A DNA stretch of 64,000 nucleotides, from positions 434,001 through 498,000 of the forward strand of contig NZ_CP063813.1 in assembly GCF_015277815.1 (NCBI RefSeq), given 5' to 3'. The position numbers were made by a program, and so were the translations under genes. The notes beneath the pieces are model-generated. The model saw nothing but the letters and a program-made list of their open reading frames with translations. It did no database searches and had not been told where the DNA came from. Below are positions 50,813-64,000 of this stretch, piece by piece. Position 1 is the stretch's first letter; every line of letters starts with the position of its first letter. The stretch comes from Microbacterium atlanticum (GTDB lineage Bacteria; Actinomycetota; Actinomycetes; Actinomycetales; Microbacteriaceae).

Positions 50813-50995
50813 CGGCGGCGGCGCCGGAGGAGAGACGTCGAGGCGACTCGCGGCGCGGGGTGCGGCATCCGTCATCTGCATCGAATGGTGCAGACGGCGT
50901 GCGCGCGATTGCGCCGTTCGCCCGACGCGGGGCGCGCCGCGGCCTTCGTAACGTCGTACTCGGATACCCGAATGGACACAGGGAAGGAGACGACG

Positions 50996-52081
50996 ATGTC
51001 CACGACGATCACCGAGACGAACGCAGCGGCCACGGCCGCGTTCGAGGACCGGATCATGAACGCCGCACTGGGCTGGTTCGACCTCACCGCCGTGCACCTC
51101 GGCTCGCAGCTCGGCTGGTACGCCGCGCTGGCGCAGTCCGACGGCCTCACGGCGGAGGAGCTGGCCGCCCGCACCGGCACCCACGCCCGCTACGCGCAGG
51201 AGTGGCTCGAGCAGCAGGCCGCCAGCGGCTTCCTCCGCGCCGAGGAGGGCCGGACGTACGCCGAGCGGCGCTTCACGCTCGCCCCCGGTGCCGAGGAGGT
51301 CCTGCTGGACCGCGGCAGCCGGTCGTACCTCGAGCCGCTCGCCCGCATGGCGGCCGCCGCCTCCGGACAGCTCGAGGCGCTCCTGCAGGCCTACCGCACC
51401 GGCGGGGGCGTCAGCTGGGAGCAGCTCGGCCGGCATGCGCGCGAGGCTCAGGCAGACATGAACCGCCCGTGGTTCGAGCAGCTGGGACCGGTCTTCGCCG
51501 GTATCGAGCACATCGACGCGGCGCTGCGGCGCCCCGACGCCCGCATCGCCGACCTCGGGTCGGGAGGCGGCTGGTCCTCCATCTCGCTCGCACAGGCGTA
51601 CCCGCAGCTGCGGGTCGTCGGCTTCGACATCGACGAGGCGTCGGTCGAGCTGGCACGGCGCAACGCCGCGGAAGCCGGCGTCGCCGACCGGGTCGAGTTC
51701 CTTCTCGCGGACGCGGCGCTCGCCGCCGAGCACGGGCCGTTCGACGCCGTCTTCGCGTTCGAGTGCCTTCACGACATGCCGCACCCCGTCGAGGTGCTCG
51801 CCGCGGCACGCGCCGCGGTGCGCGAGGACGGCGTGGTGGTGATCATGGACGAGGCCACCGAGGAGCGCTTCGCCGCCGACGCGAGCGAGCTCGAGCGGCT
51901 GCTGTACGGGTTCAGCATCTTCGTGTGCCTCCCGGACGGGCTCTCACACCGGCCGAGCGCGGGCACCGGCACGGTCATGCGCCCCGACACGCTGCGCCGG
52001 TACGCGCGGAATGCGGGCTGGAGCGACATCCGCGTCCTCGTGCCCGAGTTCGGGCTGTGGCGCTTCTACGAGATCGTCTGA
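50996..52081 (+). CDS. SAM-dependent class I methyltransferase with winged-helix N-terminus
   Basis: A 361-aa protein. The N-terminal 110 residues form a winged-helix-like dimer domain (LGSQLGWYAALAQSDGLTAEELAARTG, then YAQEWLEQQAASGFL). The SAM-binding Rossmann core follows (RIADLGSGGGWSSISLAQAYP, VVGFDIDEASVELARRN, FAFECLHDMPHPVEVLAAAR). Related proteins are often annotated as transcriptional-regulator-like methyltransferases. The ATG at 50996 has GGGAAGGAG about six bases upstream, preferred over an earlier in-frame start at 50885. The substrate is unknown. The upstream 183 bases hold no other gene. Confidence 0.82.
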   Translation: MSTTITETNAAATAAFEDRIMNAALGWFDLTAVHLGSQLGWYAALAQSDGLTAEELAARTGTHARYAQEWLEQQAASGFLRAEEGRTYAERRFTLAPGAEEVLLDRGSRSYLEPLARMAAAASGQLEALLQAYRTGGGVSWEQLGRHAREAQADMNRPWFEQLGPVFAGIEHIDAALRRPDARIADLGSGGGWSSISLAQAYPQLRVVGFDIDEASVELARRNAAEAGVADRVEFLLADAALAAEHGPFDAVFAFECLHDMPHPVEVLAAARAAVREDGVVVIMDEATEERFAADASELERLLYGFSIFVCLPDGLSHRPSAGTGTVMRPDTLRRYARNAGWSDIRVLVPEFGLWRFYEIV

Positions 52082-56519: not shown

Positions 56520-56549
56520 TTCGTGTATCAGACGGCCCCTTCCGCGCTC
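56520..56549 (+). promoter_or_regulatory. Bipartite motif, copy 1, upstream of the ECF operon
   Basis: TTCGTGTATCAG (56520-56531), 11 bases, CGCGCTC (56543-56549), ending 27 bases before the sigma-factor ATG. The same two blocks at the same spacing recur after the last gene of the operon (62138). It may be the target promoter of the encoded ECF sigma factor or a flanking repeat. A GGAATC at 56503 is not at usual ECF spacing. Confidence 0.5.
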
Positions 56550-56563
56550 GGGCATGGTGTGGA

Positions 56564-56579
56564 CAGAATGGGCGCTATG
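56564..56579 (+). promoter_or_regulatory. Weak leaderless box at the sigma-factor start
   Basis: CAGAAT at 56564-56569, seven bases, ATG at 56577. There is no ribosome site, which favours a leaderless mRNA from here, or reading from the bipartite motif upstream. Confidence 0.3.
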
Positions 56580-57194
56580 ACGCACGCGGGCGCCGAGCCA
56601 TCCGTCGACTCCGTGGAGCCGGCGAGATGGGAGCGTGCCGCCGCACTCTTCGTGCGGTGGCGCGAGGGCGACAGCCGTGCGATGGACGAGCTCGTCCGCC
56701 TGATGTCGCCACCGCTGTGGCACGTCGTACGGGCGTACGGACTCGACCATGCGCTGGCACAGGACGTCGTGCAGACGACCTGGCTGACGCTCGTTCGCCG
56801 TCACGAGACCATCAACGACCCCCTCGCGGTGTCGGGATGGCTCACCATGTGCGCACGCCGTGAGGCGTGGCGGGTCGGCAAACAGCATCGCAAGGCCGAT
56901 GCGACCGAGGCCGAGACGCTCGCACCGCACCTTCCTGTCCACGAATCCGCCGAGCACACGGCAGCGCAGGACGACGAGACGCGTCGCCTCTGGACAGCTG
57001 TCGCGACGCTCAACGACCGATGCCAGCGCCTGCTGCGGATCGTCGCGTTCGAGGATCGTCCGGACTACGCCCGCATCGCCGAAGACCTCGCGATGCCCAT
57101 CGGATCCATCGGGCCGACCCGTCAGCGCTGTCTCGCGAAGCTCCGCGCCGTGCTGGAGGGCGAGGGATGGAAAGGGGACGACGATGGAAACTGA
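56577..57194 (+). CDS. ECF-type RNA polymerase sigma factor
   Basis: A 205-aa sigma-70-family factor with region 2 (FVRWREGDSRAMDELVRLM, ALAQDVVQTTWLTLVRR) and region 4 (LNDRCQRLLRIVAFEDRPDY, ARIAEDLAMPIGSIGPTRQRCLAKLR). The linker is long and acidic. No membrane anti-sigma gene follows; instead the next gene overlaps by 11 bases and encodes a 155-aa soluble protein, then a subtilase and a CHAT protease. It probably activates this operon and perhaps other targets. Its control may be through the overlapping companion. Confidence 0.88.
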   Translation: MTHAGAEPSVDSVEPARWERAAALFVRWREGDSRAMDELVRLMSPPLWHVVRAYGLDHALAQDVVQTTWLTLVRRHETINDPLAVSGWLTMCARREAWRVGKQHRKADATEAETLAPHLPVHESAEHTAAQDDETRRLWTAVATLNDRCQRLLRIVAFEDRPDYARIAEDLAMPIGSIGPTRQRCLAKLRAVLEGEGWKGDDDGN

Positions 57195-57651
57195 GGACTT
57201 CGCGGCCGATGCCGCACTCTTCGCACGCATGCGCCGCATGTGGGAGGACGTCGACCCGGTGCCCGCCGACCTGGTCGACCGCATGGTCGCCGCGGTGGCC
57301 GTGGAGGACCTCTCGCGCGAGTACGCGCTGCTCACCCTCGTCGAGGGGACGCTCGCGGCGGTGCGCGGAGACACCGACACCGCCACGCTGCAGTTCAGCG
57401 ACGGCACGACCAGCGTGCTGCTGCACGTGACGGCCACCGAGGGCGGCGGGCGTCGGGTGGACGGATGGGTGGACGGCACGGCGCTGGCCATCCGGCTCGT
57501 CCAGGACGACCGGGAGTGGTCGGCCGATCCGGGCGAGCACGGACGGTTCGCCTTCGAGGAGGTCACGCCGGGGGTGGCCCGCCTCCGCCTGGTGGTCCGC
57601 GACGCCGACGGGGCGCTGCGCGACTTCCAGACCCCGCAGTTCGAAGTCTGA
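57184..57651 (+). CDS. 155-aa companion of the ECF/subtilase/CHAT operon
   Basis: A soluble protein whose ATG lies 11 bases inside the sigma gene. Residues 1-50 are helical (LFARMRRMWEDVDPVPADLV, then DRMVAAVAVEDLSREYALL), as in anti-sigma N-terminal segments. Residues 60-155 are strand-rich and end in GRFAFEEVTPGVARLRLVVR, which recalls carboxypeptidase-regulatory-like beta-sandwiches (G-x-F-x-F-x-x-V-x-P-G). There are no cysteines, no zinc motif and no membrane segment. A cytoplasmic anti-sigma or adaptor role is possible from position alone; I do not recognise the family with certainty. Confidence 0.7.
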   Translation: METEDFAADAALFARMRRMWEDVDPVPADLVDRMVAAVAVEDLSREYALLTLVEGTLAAVRGDTDTATLQFSDGTTSVLLHVTATEGGGRRVDGWVDGTALAIRLVQDDREWSADPGEHGRFAFEEVTPGVARLRLVVRDADGALRDFQTPQFEV

Positions 57652-57674
57652 CGATCAGTTCGAAGAGACGGATG

Positions 57675-57694
57675 CCGCGGCCTGGGGGCCGCGG
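57675..57694 (+). other. Intra-operon hairpin before the subtilase gene
   Basis: CCGCGGCC, loop TGGG, GGCCGCGG, in the 69-base gap between the companion and subtilase genes. It could lower protease synthesis relative to the sigma factor. AGTTCGAAG occurs twice just before it. Confidence 0.5.
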
Positions 57695-57720
57695 ATTCCG
57701 CATGTGATGAGGGAGAAGAC

Positions 57721-59544
57721 ATGGCGAACGCCGACAGCGCGCAACGAGGCACCTGGCGGGAGCGGGAGGTGGCGGGCGAGCCGAAGGGCGTCGTCCTCGA
57801 CCCTCGCCGCGAGCCCGTCCCCGGCCTGCAGGCCTACGACACCGTGTACGCCGCCGGTCACCTGGTGATCTCCGGCGATCCGGCGGAGGCGGAGGCGGCG
57901 CTCAAGGGCGCGGGGGCGAAGCTCGGCTGGGATGTGGAGGTCGAGGAGCTGCCCAGCGGCCAGGACACGGCAGCGCTCTCGCGCGCGCGGATCGTCCAGG
58001 CGCCGCGCGAGGGCCGCGACGACGAGCCGGTGCCCCCGGTCGACGCGTGGCGGCTGCTGCAGCAGGCGCGCCGTGACGTGCTCATCGCCGAGCGCATGGG
58101 CGTCGCCGCCCGCGGCCTCGCACCGCGCGAGGCCGGCGCGGAGGTTCCCGACTCGGCGGCCCGCGCGGCGGCGACGCGCTCCGTGTCGCTCGAGGCGGCG
58201 ATCGCGAACGACCCGCCGCGCCGTGCCGAAGCGGCGGCGCAGACCGAGACGCGCACGCGGTCGGCCCGGGCGGTCGACGATCCGGTGCTCGCGCAGGTGA
58301 GCCTGGACCACGTGCTCGGCGTGGACCCCATCGACATGAACCCGCACGGCCGGACGAATCCGCACGGGCGCACGAATCCGCACGGCCGTACCAATCCGCA
58401 CGGCCGCACCAACCCGAGCGGCACGGACGGCTACGCCTACCCCGGATCCGGCGGGCTCGAGCTCGTCACCTACATCGGCGCTCCGCCCGCCGACCGGCAT
58501 GCGCTGGCAGACGGCGGGCGTCGCCCCGTCATCGGCTTCGTCGACACCGGCTGCGGCACGCACCCGTGGTTCACGGCGCCCGATGGGCGGTCGGTCGTGC
58601 GCACGATCGACGCGGTCGACGGCTCCGGCGTGATCGGGGTGAACGACCCGGCGACCGACCCGGAGCGGTTCGGCGACCAGGCCGGCCCGCTCGACGGGTT
58701 CCTGGACGACGCAGCCGGACACGGGACGTTCGTGGCGGGCGTGCTGCGTCAGGTCTGCCCGGACGCGGACCTCATCGCGATCCGGGTCGCCGACAGCAAC
58801 GGCAGCGTCCTGGAGAGCGAGCTGATCACCGCGCTCGAGCAGCTCGCCGACTGGATGGATGCCGGGACCAAGACGGACCCCCATCACCTCGACGTGCTGA
58901 ACCTCTCGCTCGGGTACTACCACGAGACGCCCGAGGACGGCCGGTTCAGCCTGCGCCTGTTCGAGGCGCTGCGCAGCCTCCGGTCGCGGGGCTGCGTCAT
59001 CGTCTGCTCGGCCGGCAACGACGCGACCGAGCGCCCGTCGTTCCCCGCCGCCCTGTACGGCTGGGGTGATCCGCTCCTGACCTTCGACGAGCCTGACGGT
59101 CTCGCCGACCACTTCGCGGTCGGGGCCCTCAACCCGCAGCGGTCATCGGTCGCGCTGTTCAGCAACATCGGGGACTGGGTGAACCTGTACGCACCCGGCA
59201 CGTCCGTCATGAGCGTGTTCCCGTCGTTCGCGGGCGGACTCCAGGCGGGGTCCCGCAACGACCGCGCCGACCGCCGGCGCCAGAGCCTGGACCCGGACGA
59301 CTTCGACAACGGCGAGGAGGGCGGCTTCGCCGTGTGGAGCGGAACCTCGTTCGCCGCGCCCTTCGTGGCGGGGACCGTCGCGGCGGAGCTCGCGGGCGAC
59401 CTCATGCGGCCCTCCACCACCCAGGCGCAGGCGCAGGCGTCGAGCCCGCGGAAGGACGCGGTGAAGAAGGCGCTCGATGCGATCCGCGCCGCCGATCGCT
59501 CCCCGCTCGCGGCCGCCCGCACGCCGGGCGCGGCGCGCCGCTGA
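57721..59544 (+). CDS. Cytoplasmic S8 subtilase with NPHGRT repeat tract
   Basis: A 607-aa serine protease. The catalytic triad is D275 (GFVDTGCGTH), H334 (GHGTFVAGV) and S543 (GTSFAAPFVAG), with the oxyanion region CSAGND. No signal peptide: the N-terminus is polar (MANADSAQRGTWREREV). Residues 1-100 look like a propeptide-type alpha/beta domain (AYDTVYAAGHLVISGDP...). Just before the catalytic domain, residues 207-230 are four exact NPHGRT repeats followed by NPSGT. ATG 57721 has GAGGGAG eight bases upstream. It lies between the ECF companion and a CHAT protease. I infer a self-contained intracellular proteolytic pathway; the substrate is unknown. Confidence 0.88.
   Translation: MANADSAQRGTWREREVAGEPKGVVLDPRREPVPGLQAYDTVYAAGHLVISGDPAEAEAALKGAGAKLGWDVEVEELPSGQDTAALSRARIVQAPREGRDDEPVPPVDAWRLLQQARRDVLIAERMGVAARGLAPREAGAEVPDSAARAAATRSVSLEAAIANDPPRRAEAAAQTETRTRSARAVDDPVLAQVSLDHVLGVDPIDMNPHGRTNPHGRTNPHGRTNPHGRTNPSGTDGYAYPGSGGLELVTYIGAPPADRHALADGGRRPVIGFVDTGCGTHPWFTAPDGRSVVRTIDAVDGSGVIGVNDPATDPERFGDQAGPLDGFLDDAAGHGTFVAGVLRQVCPDADLIAIRVADSNGSVLESELITALEQLADWMDAGTKTDPHHLDVLNLSLGYYHETPEDGRFSLRLFEALRSLRSRGCVIVCSAGNDATERPSFPAALYGWGDPLLTFDEPDGLADHFAVGALNPQRSSVALFSNIGDWVNLYAPGTSVMSVFPSFAGGLQAGSRNDRADRRRQSLDPDDFDNGEEGGFAVWSGTSFAAPFVAGTVAAELAGDLMRPSTTQAQAQASSPRKDAVKKALDAIRAADRSPLAAARTPGAARR
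58339..58425 (+). repeat. 18-bp coding repeats encoding (NPHGRT)4-NPSGT
   Basis: Four 18-base units at 58339, 58357, 58375 and 58393, plus a partial fifth to 58425. The units differ only at synonymous positions, so the peptide rather than the DNA is conserved. Confidence 0.9.
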
Positions 59545-59608
59545 CGCCGCCGGGCGGCCCTTGCCGGCGGCGGGCCGCCCGTCGTCGCTGTGCGGACGCT
59601 CTTCGCGC

Positions 59609-59623
59609 CATGATTGCTCCATG
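59609..59623 (+). promoter_or_regulatory. Candidate internal leaderless box for the CHAT gene
   Basis: CATGAT at 59609-59614, six bases, ATG at 59621. It implies the CHAT protein can be made from its own transcript as well as from the operon. Confidence 0.4.
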
Positions 59624-62125
59624 GGGACTCGGATCGACGCGGGGGCGAGGTATGCCCGCGGGGTCGAGCTCGCCAACCGCGGCCGGTACACCGACGCGCG
59701 GCGCATGCTCGCAGAAGCGAGCGACGCGGCAGAGCGCGACGGCGACCGCAACCTGACGGCGCGCATCGCCGGCACCACCGCGTACGTCCTCGCCCGCATG
59801 GGGGACGTGGACGCGGGTGAGCGGCTGTGCCTCGAGGCGCTCGCCCAGGGCGGACTGGATGCCGTCACCGTCGCCCAGCTGCACGGACAGCTCGGTGCCC
59901 TCGCCCTGGAGCGCGGGCTGCTCGACGACGCCGCGTCCTGGCTCGACAAGAGCATCCGCGGACTGCGTGACGATCCGGTGCGGCAGGCCAACATGAGGAT
60001 CAACCGCAGCCTGGTCGACATGCAGCGCGGGCAGCTCGACGCCGCGATGGCCGACCTCGCCGCGGCCGAGCACACCTACCGGGAGGCGGGGCTCGGGACC
60101 GAGGCGGACCTCGCGGTGCACAACCGCGGATACACCCTGATGCTCGCGGGCGACCTCGTGGCGGCTCTGCAGACGATGCAGGCGGTGCGCGAGCCGCTGG
60201 ACGACGCGTCCACAATGTGGGCGGCGGTGAACGAGCTCGATCGTGCGGAGGTGCTCCGGGAGGCCGGGCTCGTGACGGAGGCCGAGCGAAGCCTGTCGGC
60301 GGTGTCGGCGGTGTTCGGCCGGCATCGCGCTCCGCGCGACCGCGCGACCGCCGACTACCACCTCGCGCGGTCGCTGCTCAGTCACGACCCCGAGCGCGCG
60401 GCGACGGTGGCGACAGCATCCGCCCGCCGGTTCGCCGCGATCGGCAGCCCCGGGTGGGCCGTCCGCGCCGAGGCGATCGGGCTTCGCGCGCGCCTCGCCG
60501 TCGGCCGGCTCGATCGCAGCGGCATGCCGGTGCGGACGCCTCGCCGGCTGCCGTCGCCGGCGAAGGTGGCCGCCGTCGCCGACGACCTTGAGGCGCAGGG
60601 CTTCCGCTCCGAGGCCGAGGCGCTCCGGCTCACCGACGCGCTGGCGCGCATCCGCACGGATCATCGAGAAGTGAAGGCCGTGCCGGCGCCGCGTGTCGGA
60701 CCTCGGACGCCGCTCGAGGTGGGACTGCTCGCACACGAGCTGCGCGCCGCGCACGCGGCCGCGCTCGGCCGGGAGCACGACACGCGCAGGCACGCCGCGG
60801 CCGGGCTGGACCTTCTCGACCGGCACCGGCGGTCCTTCGGCAGTCTCGACCTGCAGGTCTCGGCCGCGATGCGGGGCACCGGGCTCGCCACGACCGGGCT
60901 GTCGTCGGCGCTGCGGTCGCGCAGTCACGCCGCCGTGTTCGAGTGGTCCGAGCGGGCTCGGGCCCTCACCGGATTCGTGCTGCCCCTGCGCCCGCCGCCC
61001 GATCCGGACCTCGCGGCGGACCTGGCTGAGCTGCGGGTGCTGCGCGCGGCGCAGCCGGACGGGGACTGGCTCTCGGACCCGCGCGCCGCGCTGCTGCGTG
61101 ACCGCACACGCGAGCGGCAGTGGAGCCACACCGCGGCGGGCGAGCACACCGGACGTGCGACGCTCGACGAGGCGAGGGGGGAGCTGGCCGACGGCGAAGT
61201 CCTCGTCGCGTACGTTTTCGACGGGACGCAGCTGGCCGCGCTGGTCGTGTCGAGGAACGGCTCGCAGCTCGTCGGTCTGGACTGGGCGGCCGCGCGCACC
61301 GCGCTCAGGGGGCTGCGGGCGGACCTCGACATGTCGGCCGCCGTGGTGCGCGGTCCCATGGCCGCCGTCGTGCGCCGCGGCCTGGACGCCCGGCTGGAGA
61401 CCCTGTCGCAGATCCTCTGCGGGCCGATCGACGGCGTCCTCGATCGGGCGGAGCGGGTGCTCATCACGGCGCCCGGAGTCCTGTCCGGGGTGCCGTGGAT
61501 GATGCTTCCCGCGCTCCGCCGCCGCCCGATCTCGATCGCGTCGTCGGTGTCGGCCTGGGTCCGGGAGCGCGCGCGCGAGTGGGTGCCCCCGGAAGCAGCG
61601 GGATTCGCCGCGGGGCCCCGGGTGGCCCGTGGCGAGGAGGAGGTGACCGCCGGGTCGGCCGCCTGGCGGCGGGCCGACGTGCGTGCGGGCGACGACGCCA
61701 CCGTTGCGGACGTGACGGCGCTGGCTTCCCGCGTGGGCGTGCTGCACATCGCCGCCCACGGGCGGCACGCCGCCGACAACCCGATGTTCTCCGGCCTCGA
61801 GCTGGCCGACGGCGCGCTCTTCGGCTACGACATCGACCTGATCCCGCGCGTGCCCGAGACCGTCGTGCTGTCGGCCTGCGAGGTCGGCCGCTCGTCGGTG
61901 CGGTGGGGTGAGGAGGCACTGGGCATGACCCGCATCTGGCTGCACGCCGGCACGCGCAGCGTGATCGCGGCGCCCGTCGTGGTGGCGGACGACAACGCCT
62001 GCGAGCTGCTGGGCGCGGTCCACGAGGGTCTCGCGGCCGGGGTGGCGCCGTCGGTCGCGCTCGCCGAGGCGGCGGAGCGCACGGGCATCGTGGCGCCGTT
62101 CCAGGTCCACGGCGCGGGTTTCTGA
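59621..62125 (+). CDS. TPR-CHAT caspase-like protease
   Basis: An 834-aa protein. Residues 1 to about 450 are TPR-like helical repeats (ARYARGVELANRGRYTDARRM, LGALALERGLLDDAASWLDK, EAGLGTEADLAVHNRGY). The C-terminal about 270 residues form a CHAT domain (caspase HetF-associated with TPRs): catalytic H713 in LHIAAHGRHA and C753 in VLSACEVGRS, with the following EEALGMTRIWLHAGTRSVIA typical of the family. It is last in the ECF operon, 76 bases after the subtilase. CHAT proteases in other bacteria act in defence and regulated cell death after sensing by attached repeats. The TPR region probably senses or binds a partner here. Confidence 0.88.
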   Translation: MGTRIDAGARYARGVELANRGRYTDARRMLAEASDAAERDGDRNLTARIAGTTAYVLARMGDVDAGERLCLEALAQGGLDAVTVAQLHGQLGALALERGLLDDAASWLDKSIRGLRDDPVRQANMRINRSLVDMQRGQLDAAMADLAAAEHTYREAGLGTEADLAVHNRGYTLMLAGDLVAALQTMQAVREPLDDASTMWAAVNELDRAEVLREAGLVTEAERSLSAVSAVFGRHRAPRDRATADYHLARSLLSHDPERAATVATASARRFAAIGSPGWAVRAEAIGLRARLAVGRLDRSGMPVRTPRRLPSPAKVAAVADDLEAQGFRSEAEALRLTDALARIRTDHREVKAVPAPRVGPRTPLEVGLLAHELRAAHAAALGREHDTRRHAAAGLDLLDRHRRSFGSLDLQVSAAMRGTGLATTGLSSALRSRSHAAVFEWSERARALTGFVLPLRPPPDPDLAADLAELRVLRAAQPDGDWLSDPRAALLRDRTRERQWSHTAAGEHTGRATLDEARGELADGEVLVAYVFDGTQLAALVVSRNGSQLVGLDWAAARTALRGLRADLDMSAAVVRGPMAAVVRRGLDARLETLSQILCGPIDGVLDRAERVLITAPGVLSGVPWMMLPALRRRPISIASSVSAWVRERAREWVPPEAAGFAAGPRVARGEEEVTAGSAAWRRADVRAGDDATVADVTALASRVGVLHIAAHGRHAADNPMFSGLELADGALFGYDIDLIPRVPETVVLSACEVGRSSVRWGEEALGMTRIWLHAGTRSVIAAPVVVADDNACELLGAVHEGLAAGVAPSVALAEAAERTGIVAPFQVHGAGF

Positions 62126-62137
62126 GAACTTCTCCCG

Positions 62138-62167
62138 TTCGTGTATCAGGGCGGATGCCGCGCGCTC
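62138..62167 (+). promoter_or_regulatory. Bipartite motif, copy 2, downstream of the CHAT gene
   Basis: TTCGTGTATCAG (62138-62149), 11 bases, CGCGCTC (62161-62167), 12 bases after the CHAT stop. Both blocks and the spacing are identical to copy 1 at 56520. No gene follows before the terminator at 62264. Confidence 0.5.
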
Positions 62168-62263
62168 CTGATCATCGGACCGGCTCGGCATGCCGATGGG
62201 GGTCGGAGCGACGCGAGACCTCGGGGAACGCAGTTCGGGCTGCGTGTCTCGACGCCGGTCCAT

Positions 62264-62299
62264 GAGGGGTGCCGCATGGGAACTGGGGCGGCACCCCTC
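62264..62299. terminator. Terminator between CHAT gene and LysR-like gene
   Basis: Perfect 12-base arms GAGGGGTGCCGC and GCGGCACCCCTC around a 12-base loop, between convergent genes. The 192-base gap (62126-62317) otherwise contains only the bipartite motif copy. Confidence 0.75.
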
Positions 62300-62317
62300 C
62301 CCATGTCCGGCCGGTGG

Positions 62318-63055
62318 TCAGTCGCGCGATGAGTTGGCGGTGCGGCCGCGGACGATCCCGACGAAGCTCTCGACCGCCGACGTCGTCCGCTCGGCGACCC
62401 ACGCGAGCGCGACCGTGGAGCGGGGGCCGTCGGCGAGGGGGCGGTGGTCCGCGTCCTTGCGGTGGTGCAGCCGCGCCACCGACATCGGGACGACGACGAT
62501 CCCGACCCCTGCGGCCACCGTGGCGATCGCCTCGGCCGTGTCGGCGGGAGCCGCGAACGCCGGGGGCAGCGCTCCCGGGACCCGGATGCCGAGCACGTCG
62601 TCGTCCGGGACGATGAGCACCTCGCCCTCCAGGTCCGCGATGGCGAGCTCGTCCGCCGCGGTGAGGTGCGAGTCCCGGGCGCAGACCACGACCGGCACCT
62701 CCTCGTAGAGCGGTATGACGTGGAGCCCGTCCTTCTCCAGCGGGAGTCTCACCAGCGCCGCGTCGACATCGCCGTCGAGGAGAGCCCGGCGCTGGCCGGC
62801 GACGGGGAGGCTGATCAGCTCGAGTGCGGTCTGCGGCATCCGCTCGTTCCACGTGTCGATCCACCGGCCGGGCGTCGCGCCCGGAACCGCCCCCAGCCGG
62901 AAGATCGGCGGCGGTGCGGCGGGCGGCTCGGGCGAAGGGCCCGGGGACGGCTGCGGGCGCCGGGGCCGGACGGCGGGCTTCTGCGCGCGGCCGGCGGTGC
63001 GGCCCCGCGGAGGCGGCGTGCCGCGACCTCGCCCGCGCGACCCGCCCTTCGCCAT
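62318..63055 (-). CDS. LysR-type effector-binding domain protein without HTH
   Basis: A 245-aa protein. Residues 1-50 are basic and Pro/Arg-rich (MAKGGSRGRGRGTPPPRGRT...). Residues 51-240 match the LysR substrate-binding domain (IFRLGAVPGATPGRWIDTW, ALLDGDVDAALVRLP, LHVIPLYEEVPVVVCARDS, TVAAGVGIVVVPMSVARL). The N-terminal winged helix of real LysR regulators is missing. It may bind nucleic acid through the basic tail or act as a ligand-sensing partner; short actinobacterial proteins like this are known but not understood. Confidence 0.8.
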   Translation of the reverse strand: MAKGGSRGRGRGTPPPRGRTAGRAQKPAVRPRRPQPSPGPSPEPPAAPPPIFRLGAVPGATPGRWIDTWNERMPQTALELISLPVAGQRRALLDGDVDAALVRLPLEKDGLHVIPLYEEVPVVVCARDSHLTAADELAIADLEGEVLIVPDDDVLGIRVPGALPPAFAAPADTAEAIATVAAGVGIVVVPMSVARLHHRKDADHRPLADGPRSTVALAWVAERTTSAVESFVGIVRGRTANSSRD

Positions 63056-63515: not shown

Positions 63516-64000
63516 TCACCCGCCGCACGCGCGCCAGCGCCCGGCCGGCTCGGACATCGCGGCGTCCTGCAGCGAACGCAGCAGCGCTTCGTGGCGGCGA
63601 TTGGGCGCGTACACCTCGACGCGTGCCGCGCCCTGCGCCACCAGCTCACCGTTGACGAAGCGGCCGTCCGGCGTCCAGACGTACAGCAGCGTCCGGCCGT
63701 ACCGGTCGTGGGACTCCACGTCTGCGGCCGCCCAGATCGTCGACCCCGCGGGCACGAGCGAGGTCAGCACCGCCGTCGCCTCCGCGCCCCAGCAGTCGAC
63801 CTCGGGCGAGACCTCGGGGGTGTCGATCCCCAGCAGGCGGATCCGCGTCGATCCGCGGTCGCCGACGATCGGGTTGGGCGTCGCGACGCGCGCGCGGAGC
63901 GTGTCGCCGTCATGGACGCTCTCGACCGTCATCTCGAAGGCGTCGGCCGGGATCGGCGGCACAGCCGCCGCCGTCGCCCGCCGGTCCGCAGTCGCTTCCT
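63516..64000 (-). CDS. Thermonuclease (SNase-like), 5' end cut by window edge
   Basis: A staphylococcal-nuclease fold: VESVHDGDTLRARV, RIRLLGIDTPEVSPEVDCWG with the catalytic Arg and Glu, and HDRYGRTLLYVW with the second Arg. An internal GTG at 63962 would give 148 residues, but the frame stays open to the edge and reads EATADRRATAAAV before it. The true start is therefore probably outside and would add a signal peptide. It probably degrades DNA/RNA outside the cell. Confidence 0.85.
   Translation of the reverse strand, partial: EATADRRATAAAVPPIPADAFEMTVESVHDGDTLRARVATPNPIVGDRGSTRIRLLGIDTPEVSPEVDCWGAEATAVLTSLVPAGSTIWAAADVESHDRYGRTLLYVWTPDGRFVNGELVAQGAARVEVYAPNRRHEALLRSLQDAAMSEPAGRWRACGG

Follow-up and report, generated by a model that had tools for sequence, protein, structure and literature searches.

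Extracytoplasmic function (ECF) sigma factors of group ECF54 are encoded near genes for carboxypeptidase, subtilase and CHAT proteins, and their control by proteolysis has been suggested; in the part that treats ECF54, the review describing them counts no anti-sigma factor, has the sigma factor held off by its own proteolysis, and gives a mainly actinobacterial mechanism with the Geodermatophilus amargosae protein SFT86700.1 as model (PMC8999054). The nearest worked example of such a system is the type III-E locus (Cas7-11/Csx29/Csx30/CASP-sigma) of clustered regularly interspaced short palindromic repeats (CRISPR), where the protease Csx29 cuts Csx30, an inhibitor of an ECF sigma factor (PMC10028731). 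Here, we analyse a locus of Microbacterium atlanticum that lies in a 64,000-nucleotide stretch (the window, whose positions are used as coordinates) of a single-contig genome of 3.71 Mb. At 56577-62125, four intact genes, all on the plus strand, encode an ECF-type sigma factor, a small companion of carboxypeptidase-regulatory type, a subtilase and a CHAT protease. The closest named proteins come from Microbacterium. By gene context the nearest known group is ECF54, which shares the sigma factor and its three kinds of neighbour and under which this set of genes has been recorded before (PMC8999054). What is new is a promoter-like element that precedes the operon and recurs behind the CHAT gene, a covarying, putative structured RNA with G-tracts in four loops behind the second element, a tandem peptide array in Microbacterium subtilases and an apparently exchanged protease cassette. 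The ECF54 section of the review describes none of these, and a first-pass annotation of the window had overlooked the RNA, the second element, the array and the cassette. A literature search, with subscription papers mostly outside its reach, recognised no paper on the RNA, the promoter pair, the array or the exchange. Tentatively, and with slightly less than even confidence, we read the locus as a proteolytic relay of ECF54 type that induces itself and carries a specificity cassette.

The sigma gene (56577-57194, 205 residues) matches Pfam Sigma70_r2 (5.8e-9) and NCBIfam sigma70-ECF (9.1e-17) and has an ECF54-like context. Overlapping it by 11 nt, the companion gene (57184-57651, 155 residues) encodes an N-terminal part with an invariant DPxP motif and a C-terminal beta sandwich. 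The subtilase (57721-59544, 607 residues; Peptidase_S8, 2.1e-23) has the triad D275, H334 and S543, and the CHAT protease (59621-62125, 834 residues; CHAT, 2.2e-24) has H713 and C753; its start is our choice, the list of open reading frames offering an upstream in-frame ATG at 59477. The first-pass annotation had taken both active sites as intact and the set as free of a membrane anti-sigma factor. Both points held: the residues are in place, and since the highest 19-residue hydrophobicity across the four proteins is 1.47, this simple test assigns none of them a signal peptide or a membrane segment.

The companion was found in 164 of 295 genomes of the genus, 25 of 149 drawn from the order and, with a profile, 25 of 296 of the phylum; the loci fetched were 80 of the 164 from the genus, 24 from the order and 20 of the 25 from the phylum. 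The 80 were hand-picked from the listed part of the companion-positive genomes, favouring strong matches and long contigs; with others, including the window and L028, they make up 85 Microbacterium loci, of which L098 duplicates L028 and L030 is cut by a contig end. Four-gene counts in the genus apply to companion-positive genomes, the 131 without companion falling outside. Hidden Markov models place all four genes on one strand in 85/85 Microbacterium loci: 78 have the gene order of the window, 4 have sigma-companion-chat-subtilase and 3 carry an additional chat or subtilase piece. Simple patterns recover the CHAT His and Cys in every locus except L030; for the triad of the subtilase they do so in 82 of 85. 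Among 20 loci from other families of the order, sigma and companion are present in 20 each, CHAT in 17 and the subtilase in 15, the latter coming first in 6; one order locus, L052, has a weak companion match and lacks the module. Across the 20 phylum loci we count 17 sigma, 13 CHAT and 12 subtilase genes, some divergent or on the opposite strand. The first-pass annotation had proposed that these genes form one module, to be given up if homologues rarely co-occurred; as they co-occur throughout the genus loci and recur together in the order and phylum loci, the four genes are a single conserved module. Two individual arrangements were also seen: an insertion of about 4 kb separates subtilase from CHAT in L031 (8234-12300), and L110 has two CHAT genes, the second a weaker match.

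The companion had been called unrecognised. This does not hold for its family, 12 of 14 members of which match CarboxypepD_reg at E up to 1 (best 5e-5), and the set is already listed under ECF54; the window's own companion gives no such match at E up to 1. Its predicted structure consists of an N-terminal helix, an uncertain stretch at residues 30-63 (predicted local distance difference test, pLDDT, under 50) and the beta sandwich. Foldseek returned generic beta sandwiches only, with no match under 1e-3, and no convincing sequence match was found in the PDB. Whereas the ECF54 section of the review counts no anti-sigma factor (PMC8999054), we regard the companion as a candidate soluble one.

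Two promoter-like elements of the form GTATCA-N16-CTC frame the operon on the plus strand, the first at 56525-56549, 27 nt 5' of the sigma start codon, and the second at 62143-62167, 17 nt 3' of the CHAT stop. Over 84 Microbacterium loci (L098 dropped), the spacer of the first is 16 nt in 71 and 17 nt in another 10; the distance from the CHAT stop to the second is at most 100 nt in 70 loci, at most 600 nt in 76 and at most 4 kb in 80. Elsewhere in 1.13 Mb, both strands counted, there are 12 exact matches. In other families the element, with N14-18, precedes the first gene in 14/20 loci, including 4 of the 6 with the subtilase first; the phylum loci hold 30 sites, not all at module starts, and none of the reversed pattern. 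The motif CGTGTATCAG has 2 copies in the M. atlanticum genome, both at this locus, and TGTATCA-N16-CTC has 4 sites, 2 of them here, with no reversed occurrence. A stricter pattern occurs in 126/295 genus genomes; by our reading of the result table 7 of these are without companion match, and 2 of the 7 hold module genes on broken contigs. We infer that the sigma factor drives its own operon and a downstream transcript. The first-pass annotation had it driving both proteases; the single element ahead of the whole operon agrees with this, the control itself being read from sequence only. Further sites were noted in passing. The other two in this genome lie outside the window at G000:C1:1778575-1778600 and 3418384-3418409 (loci L063 and L067), the L067 site standing 5' of a small open reading frame. 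At L200:1820 and L201:2116 (module orientation) the element precedes a P-loop-like stretch, possibly a further sigma target, and in L037, from 14146 onward (module orientation), the post-CHAT element is followed by a gene with an apparently broken frame and then a subtilase-like stretch.

What follows the second element is, in most of the 77 loci where it lies within 500 nt of CHAT, no visible gene; a stretch closing in a strong hairpin is found instead. In the window this putative non-coding RNA spans 62168-62300 on the plus strand and is predicted to form P1, P2, P3a, P3b and a terminator-like hairpin without U tract, P4 (62264-62299), with G-tracts in four unpaired segments. The terminal hairpin is a perfect stem scoring 30 or more in 68/77 loci, CUGGGG is present in 65/77, and GGGG tracts average 4.3 per 190 nt versus 0.9. 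At an E cut-off of 0.005, a covariance model trained on 10 sequences recovers the RNA where it is expected in 44 of 85 sources, these 10 included, and scores the window RNA at 49.8 bits (E 4.8e-6). Across 40 RNAs, in an alignment that had been fitted to the structure, 86.0% of cells pair, covariation is 0.411 versus 0.169 when shuffled and 0.07-0.10 when slid, and G-runs of at least 3 occupy the four unpaired segments in 37, 30, 39 and 30 RNAs, respectively. An alignment-free partner-swap test on 67 sequences (10 of the 77 left out) gave 0/2000 for P1, P3 and P4; because two controls gave 42 and 2 of 2000, we count only P1 and P4, whose energy gaps are clear, as supported. The window RNA by itself is not unusually stable (z -1.39; 18/200 shuffles fold equally well), 7 opposite-strand matches of the model at E up to 0.005 lie over the palindromic hairpin, and Rfam, searched with window positions 62050-62420 only, returned nothing at gathering score.

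In a genus-wide scan, which missed the window's own copy, 47/295 genomes gave a match to the RNA with E of 0.01 or lower. By position, 44 of these matches adjoin module genes (one, G244, placed solely by distance from its companion match); the other 3 are weak and lie elsewhere. Other subclades have RNA-like stretches beyond the reach of the covariance model. In other families, 21 loci gave no match to model R1 at an E cut-off of 0.01. At least 3 G-tracts stand behind 13 of the 54 element sites there, versus 7% of random positions, so that these families may harbour candidate relatives of the RNA. G-tract-rich stretches after an element, possible relatives, lie at L205:9259, L196:9354 (module orientation), L049:7214, L038:7471 (minus strand) and L199:3882. 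L110 has an element and an RNA copy behind each CHAT gene, the second 417 nt after its CHAT; the four loci with chat-subtilase order have the element behind CHAT, and in L179 RNA and element stand behind the subtilase. Over 39 loci, RNA distance tracks that of sigma (r 0.51) and companion (0.47) and not that of array (0.002) or subtilase (0.05), with weaker partial links to the catalytic (0.28) and TPR (0.20) parts of CHAT. The RNA would be a constant second output of the sigma factor, outside the exchanged specificity. Two other roles were considered and rejected: a partner of each CHAT variant, given its place in L179 and its tracking of sigma and companion, and a CsrA sponge, given that the M. 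atlanticum genome has no CsrA match (PF02599; matches in 3/14 control genomes). Other genes behind the second element include an unmatched 178-residue protein in L142 and an ordinary-looking open reading frame in L176.

The subtilase carries a tandem array of four NPHGRT units (58339-58410, plus strand; residues 207-230) N-terminal to its catalytic domain. Arrays of NP units are present in all 85 Microbacterium subtilases analysed (84 loci), with about 3-8 copies of 5-8 residues placed 33-73 residues ahead of the catalytic Asp, and in 9/15 subtilases of other families, several with different units. Comparison of 275 pairs of neighbouring units, anchored on NP, gave 594 synonymous versus 41 other differences, with proportions of synonymous (pS) and non-synonymous (pN) differences of 0.505 and 0.012; end units with more than 2 changes were dropped, which lowers pN somewhat. 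With pS so far above pN, the copies are evidently old yet held nearly identical. The 85 arrays use 34 distinct unit sequences, near-identical inside a gene and differing between species.

Array and CHAT protease seem to travel together. Between L028 and L100, DNA identity is 93-97% over sigma and companion, falls to mostly 45-66% from the companion stop through the subtilase and most of CHAT, and is back at 87-93% over roughly the last 345 nt ahead of the CHAT stop and across the RNA. The window compared with L099 has the same profile (0.88-0.93, then 0.40-0.74, then 0.73-0.82), which puts the polymorphic stretch at 57652-61680 on the plus strand, its ends being approximate, and includes the whole subtilase and CHAT to about residue 690. 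In 68 close pairs, proteases are alike where the units are the same and not where they differ. A tree of CHAT residues 1-700 from 23 loci groups NPHxxT, five-residue, seven-to-eight-residue, GST and GRT units. In tree tests, whose groups were named after the distances had been seen, the NPFKG grouping is rejected by the sigma-companion data (approximately unbiased, p-AU 2.3e-6), and L028+L100+L109 by the CHAT data (3.8e-7). Over 83 loci, unit length requires 4 changes on the CHAT tree versus 16 on the sigma tree, and exact units 39 versus 47. Together, these comparisons indicate that array type tracks the CHAT tree and not the sigma tree, and that in the window's clade the subtilase and most of CHAT appear to have been exchanged as one unit, with the sigma-companion pair and the RNA on either side staying conserved.

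The predicted CHAT model (pLDDT 84.5) joins a TPR superhelix (residues ~4-366) to a separase/Csx29-like protease (~435-834). H713 and C753 are invariant in 32 aligned relatives, and no sequence match in the PDB was found at 0.01. The locus shares with type III-E a TPR-CHAT protease with catalytic His and Cys as in Craspase, an ECF sigma factor, a partner protein and sigma motifs inside its own locus (PMC10028731); it differs in that a second protease and a peptide array belong to the module, and RAMP proteins (PF03787), which would include Cas7-11, have no match in the M. atlanticum genome (control genomes 4/14; CRISPR arrays were not searched). In the relay that we favour, the companion would hold the sigma factor, and the TPR superhelix would bind the NPxxxx repeats of its own subtilase, either as a dock or as a multi-copy cleavage site freeing the catalytic domain. 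The activated protease pair would then cut the companion, and the freed sigma factor would raise its own operon and the RNA in a positive loop.

Several observations weigh against this interpretation. The published reading of ECF54 does without the anti-sigma factor that the relay needs (PMC8999054). The TPR likeness may reflect a common superhelix, and Foldseek ranks a cilium protein and the anti-sigma factor DdvA above Csx29. The promoter motif alone is not rare: reversed CGTGTATCAG occurs 4 times in the M. atlanticum genome, and G069, without companion, carries 3 TGTATCA-N16-CTC sites. No array was found in 6/15 subtilases of other families. All 56 different-unit pairs come from a single clade of 13 loci, and the large NPFTRT group is without exchange. 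Physical linkage alone would carry array and CHAT together and explains part of their agreement; once the distances of the subtilase and of the CHAT catalytic part are controlled for, little correlation is left between array and TPR (partial r 0.10; 4/499 permutations). Finally, matching is not strict, as the window's best TPR match is from an NPHGMT species and its best subtilase match from an NPHGRT species.

Loci such as agr and ComQXP combine a variable processing, peptide and receptor block with an adjacent conserved regulator, the variable receptor part being joined to a conserved output part. An exchanged block next to a conserved regulator is seen here too, in one clade of 13 loci and with a candidate peptide-receptor role; here, however, the parts are a sigma factor and proteases, not a two-component system, and an exported peptide is not in evidence. 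A bolder extension of the relay, possible but doubtful, is that these are lock-and-key 'pherotypes', in which a subtilase with species-specific peptide copies and a TPR-CHAT cognate receptor, exchanged between species as a block, would by their matching control the ECF sigma factor that drives the pair and the G-tract RNA; this would be a new kind of bacterial specificity system.

The array could alternatively be the multi-copy precursor of a peptide messenger of 5-8 residues sensed by the TPR part, again pherotype-like with a protease as receptor. We consider this unlikely, although three things speak for it: strong selection on copies that are near-identical, the 34 unit sequences used by different species, and block exchange adjoining a conserved regulator. 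The TPR superhelix, closest to APPBP2, also resembles Rap and NprR of the RRNPP receptors (about 330 residues aligned), whose short peptides are of similar length; here, in contrast, it is fused to a protease, and the repeated peptide sits inside a subtilase rather than in a small precursor. A secreted signal is also unsupported, with no transporter among the four genes and no signal peptide; the window subtilase lacks a hydrophobic N-terminus by a simple test that does not cover other export routes.

Another scheme makes the proteases an off-switch that degrades the sigma factor to keep it low, with the companion as an adaptor presenting it. It has been proposed in print for ECF54 (PMC8999054), and sigma and both protease genes do stand behind a single element. 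In that case the sigma factor would induce its own destruction, which is possible as negative feedback, and array and exchanged block would go unexplained; we judge it improbable.

The first-pass annotation leaned towards defence, and a defence or cell-death module set off by infection now seems quite improbable. Effectors of CHAT and subtilase type are known from defence systems, and PADLOC has a subtilase model; yet among the four proteins only the subtilase matches PADLOC, and generically ('subtilase' 6.5e-9; IetS 4.6e-4). Three neighbours match as well, a LuxR-type gene (CARF3 models), a methyltransferase at 50885-52078 (mad2, 9.4e-21) and a nuclease at 63516-63962 (SNc+LTD, 1.5e-18), which we read as shared common domains because Pfam calls them GerE, methyltransferase and SNase. 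The module keeps a syntenic place among ordinary-looking genes, with a GATase beside the locus in 56/85 and a LysR gene in 59/85, and no close CHAT relative was found in viral contigs. ECF sigma factors do occur together with caspase systems (PMC8195603). Single relatives offer weak pointers towards defence behind the second element: a TCAD7-CHAT protein in place of the RNA in L144 (7690-10045), and a vWA (integrin-like) protein in L135 (8251-10061) and, judged by likeness to it, L139 (7883-9699). Least probable of all is that the array is a flexible linker and the block a neutral replacement by recombination, since identical peptides despite strongly diverged synonymous sites are not expected of linkers, even if the block has sharp, recombination-like edges and the arrays precede the catalytic domain, where a linker would be expected.

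The element, the RNA, the two-part companion and the matched, exchanged protease pair of this module give ECF54 concrete parts where the review's account of the group had offered proteases and a proposed mechanism only (PMC8999054). Should the array be the recognition element, proteases and a sigma factor would here make up a peptide-specificity system that parallels the Csx29-Csx30-sigma relay outside CRISPR, and its variants may constitute a natural set of orthogonal protease-peptide pairs.
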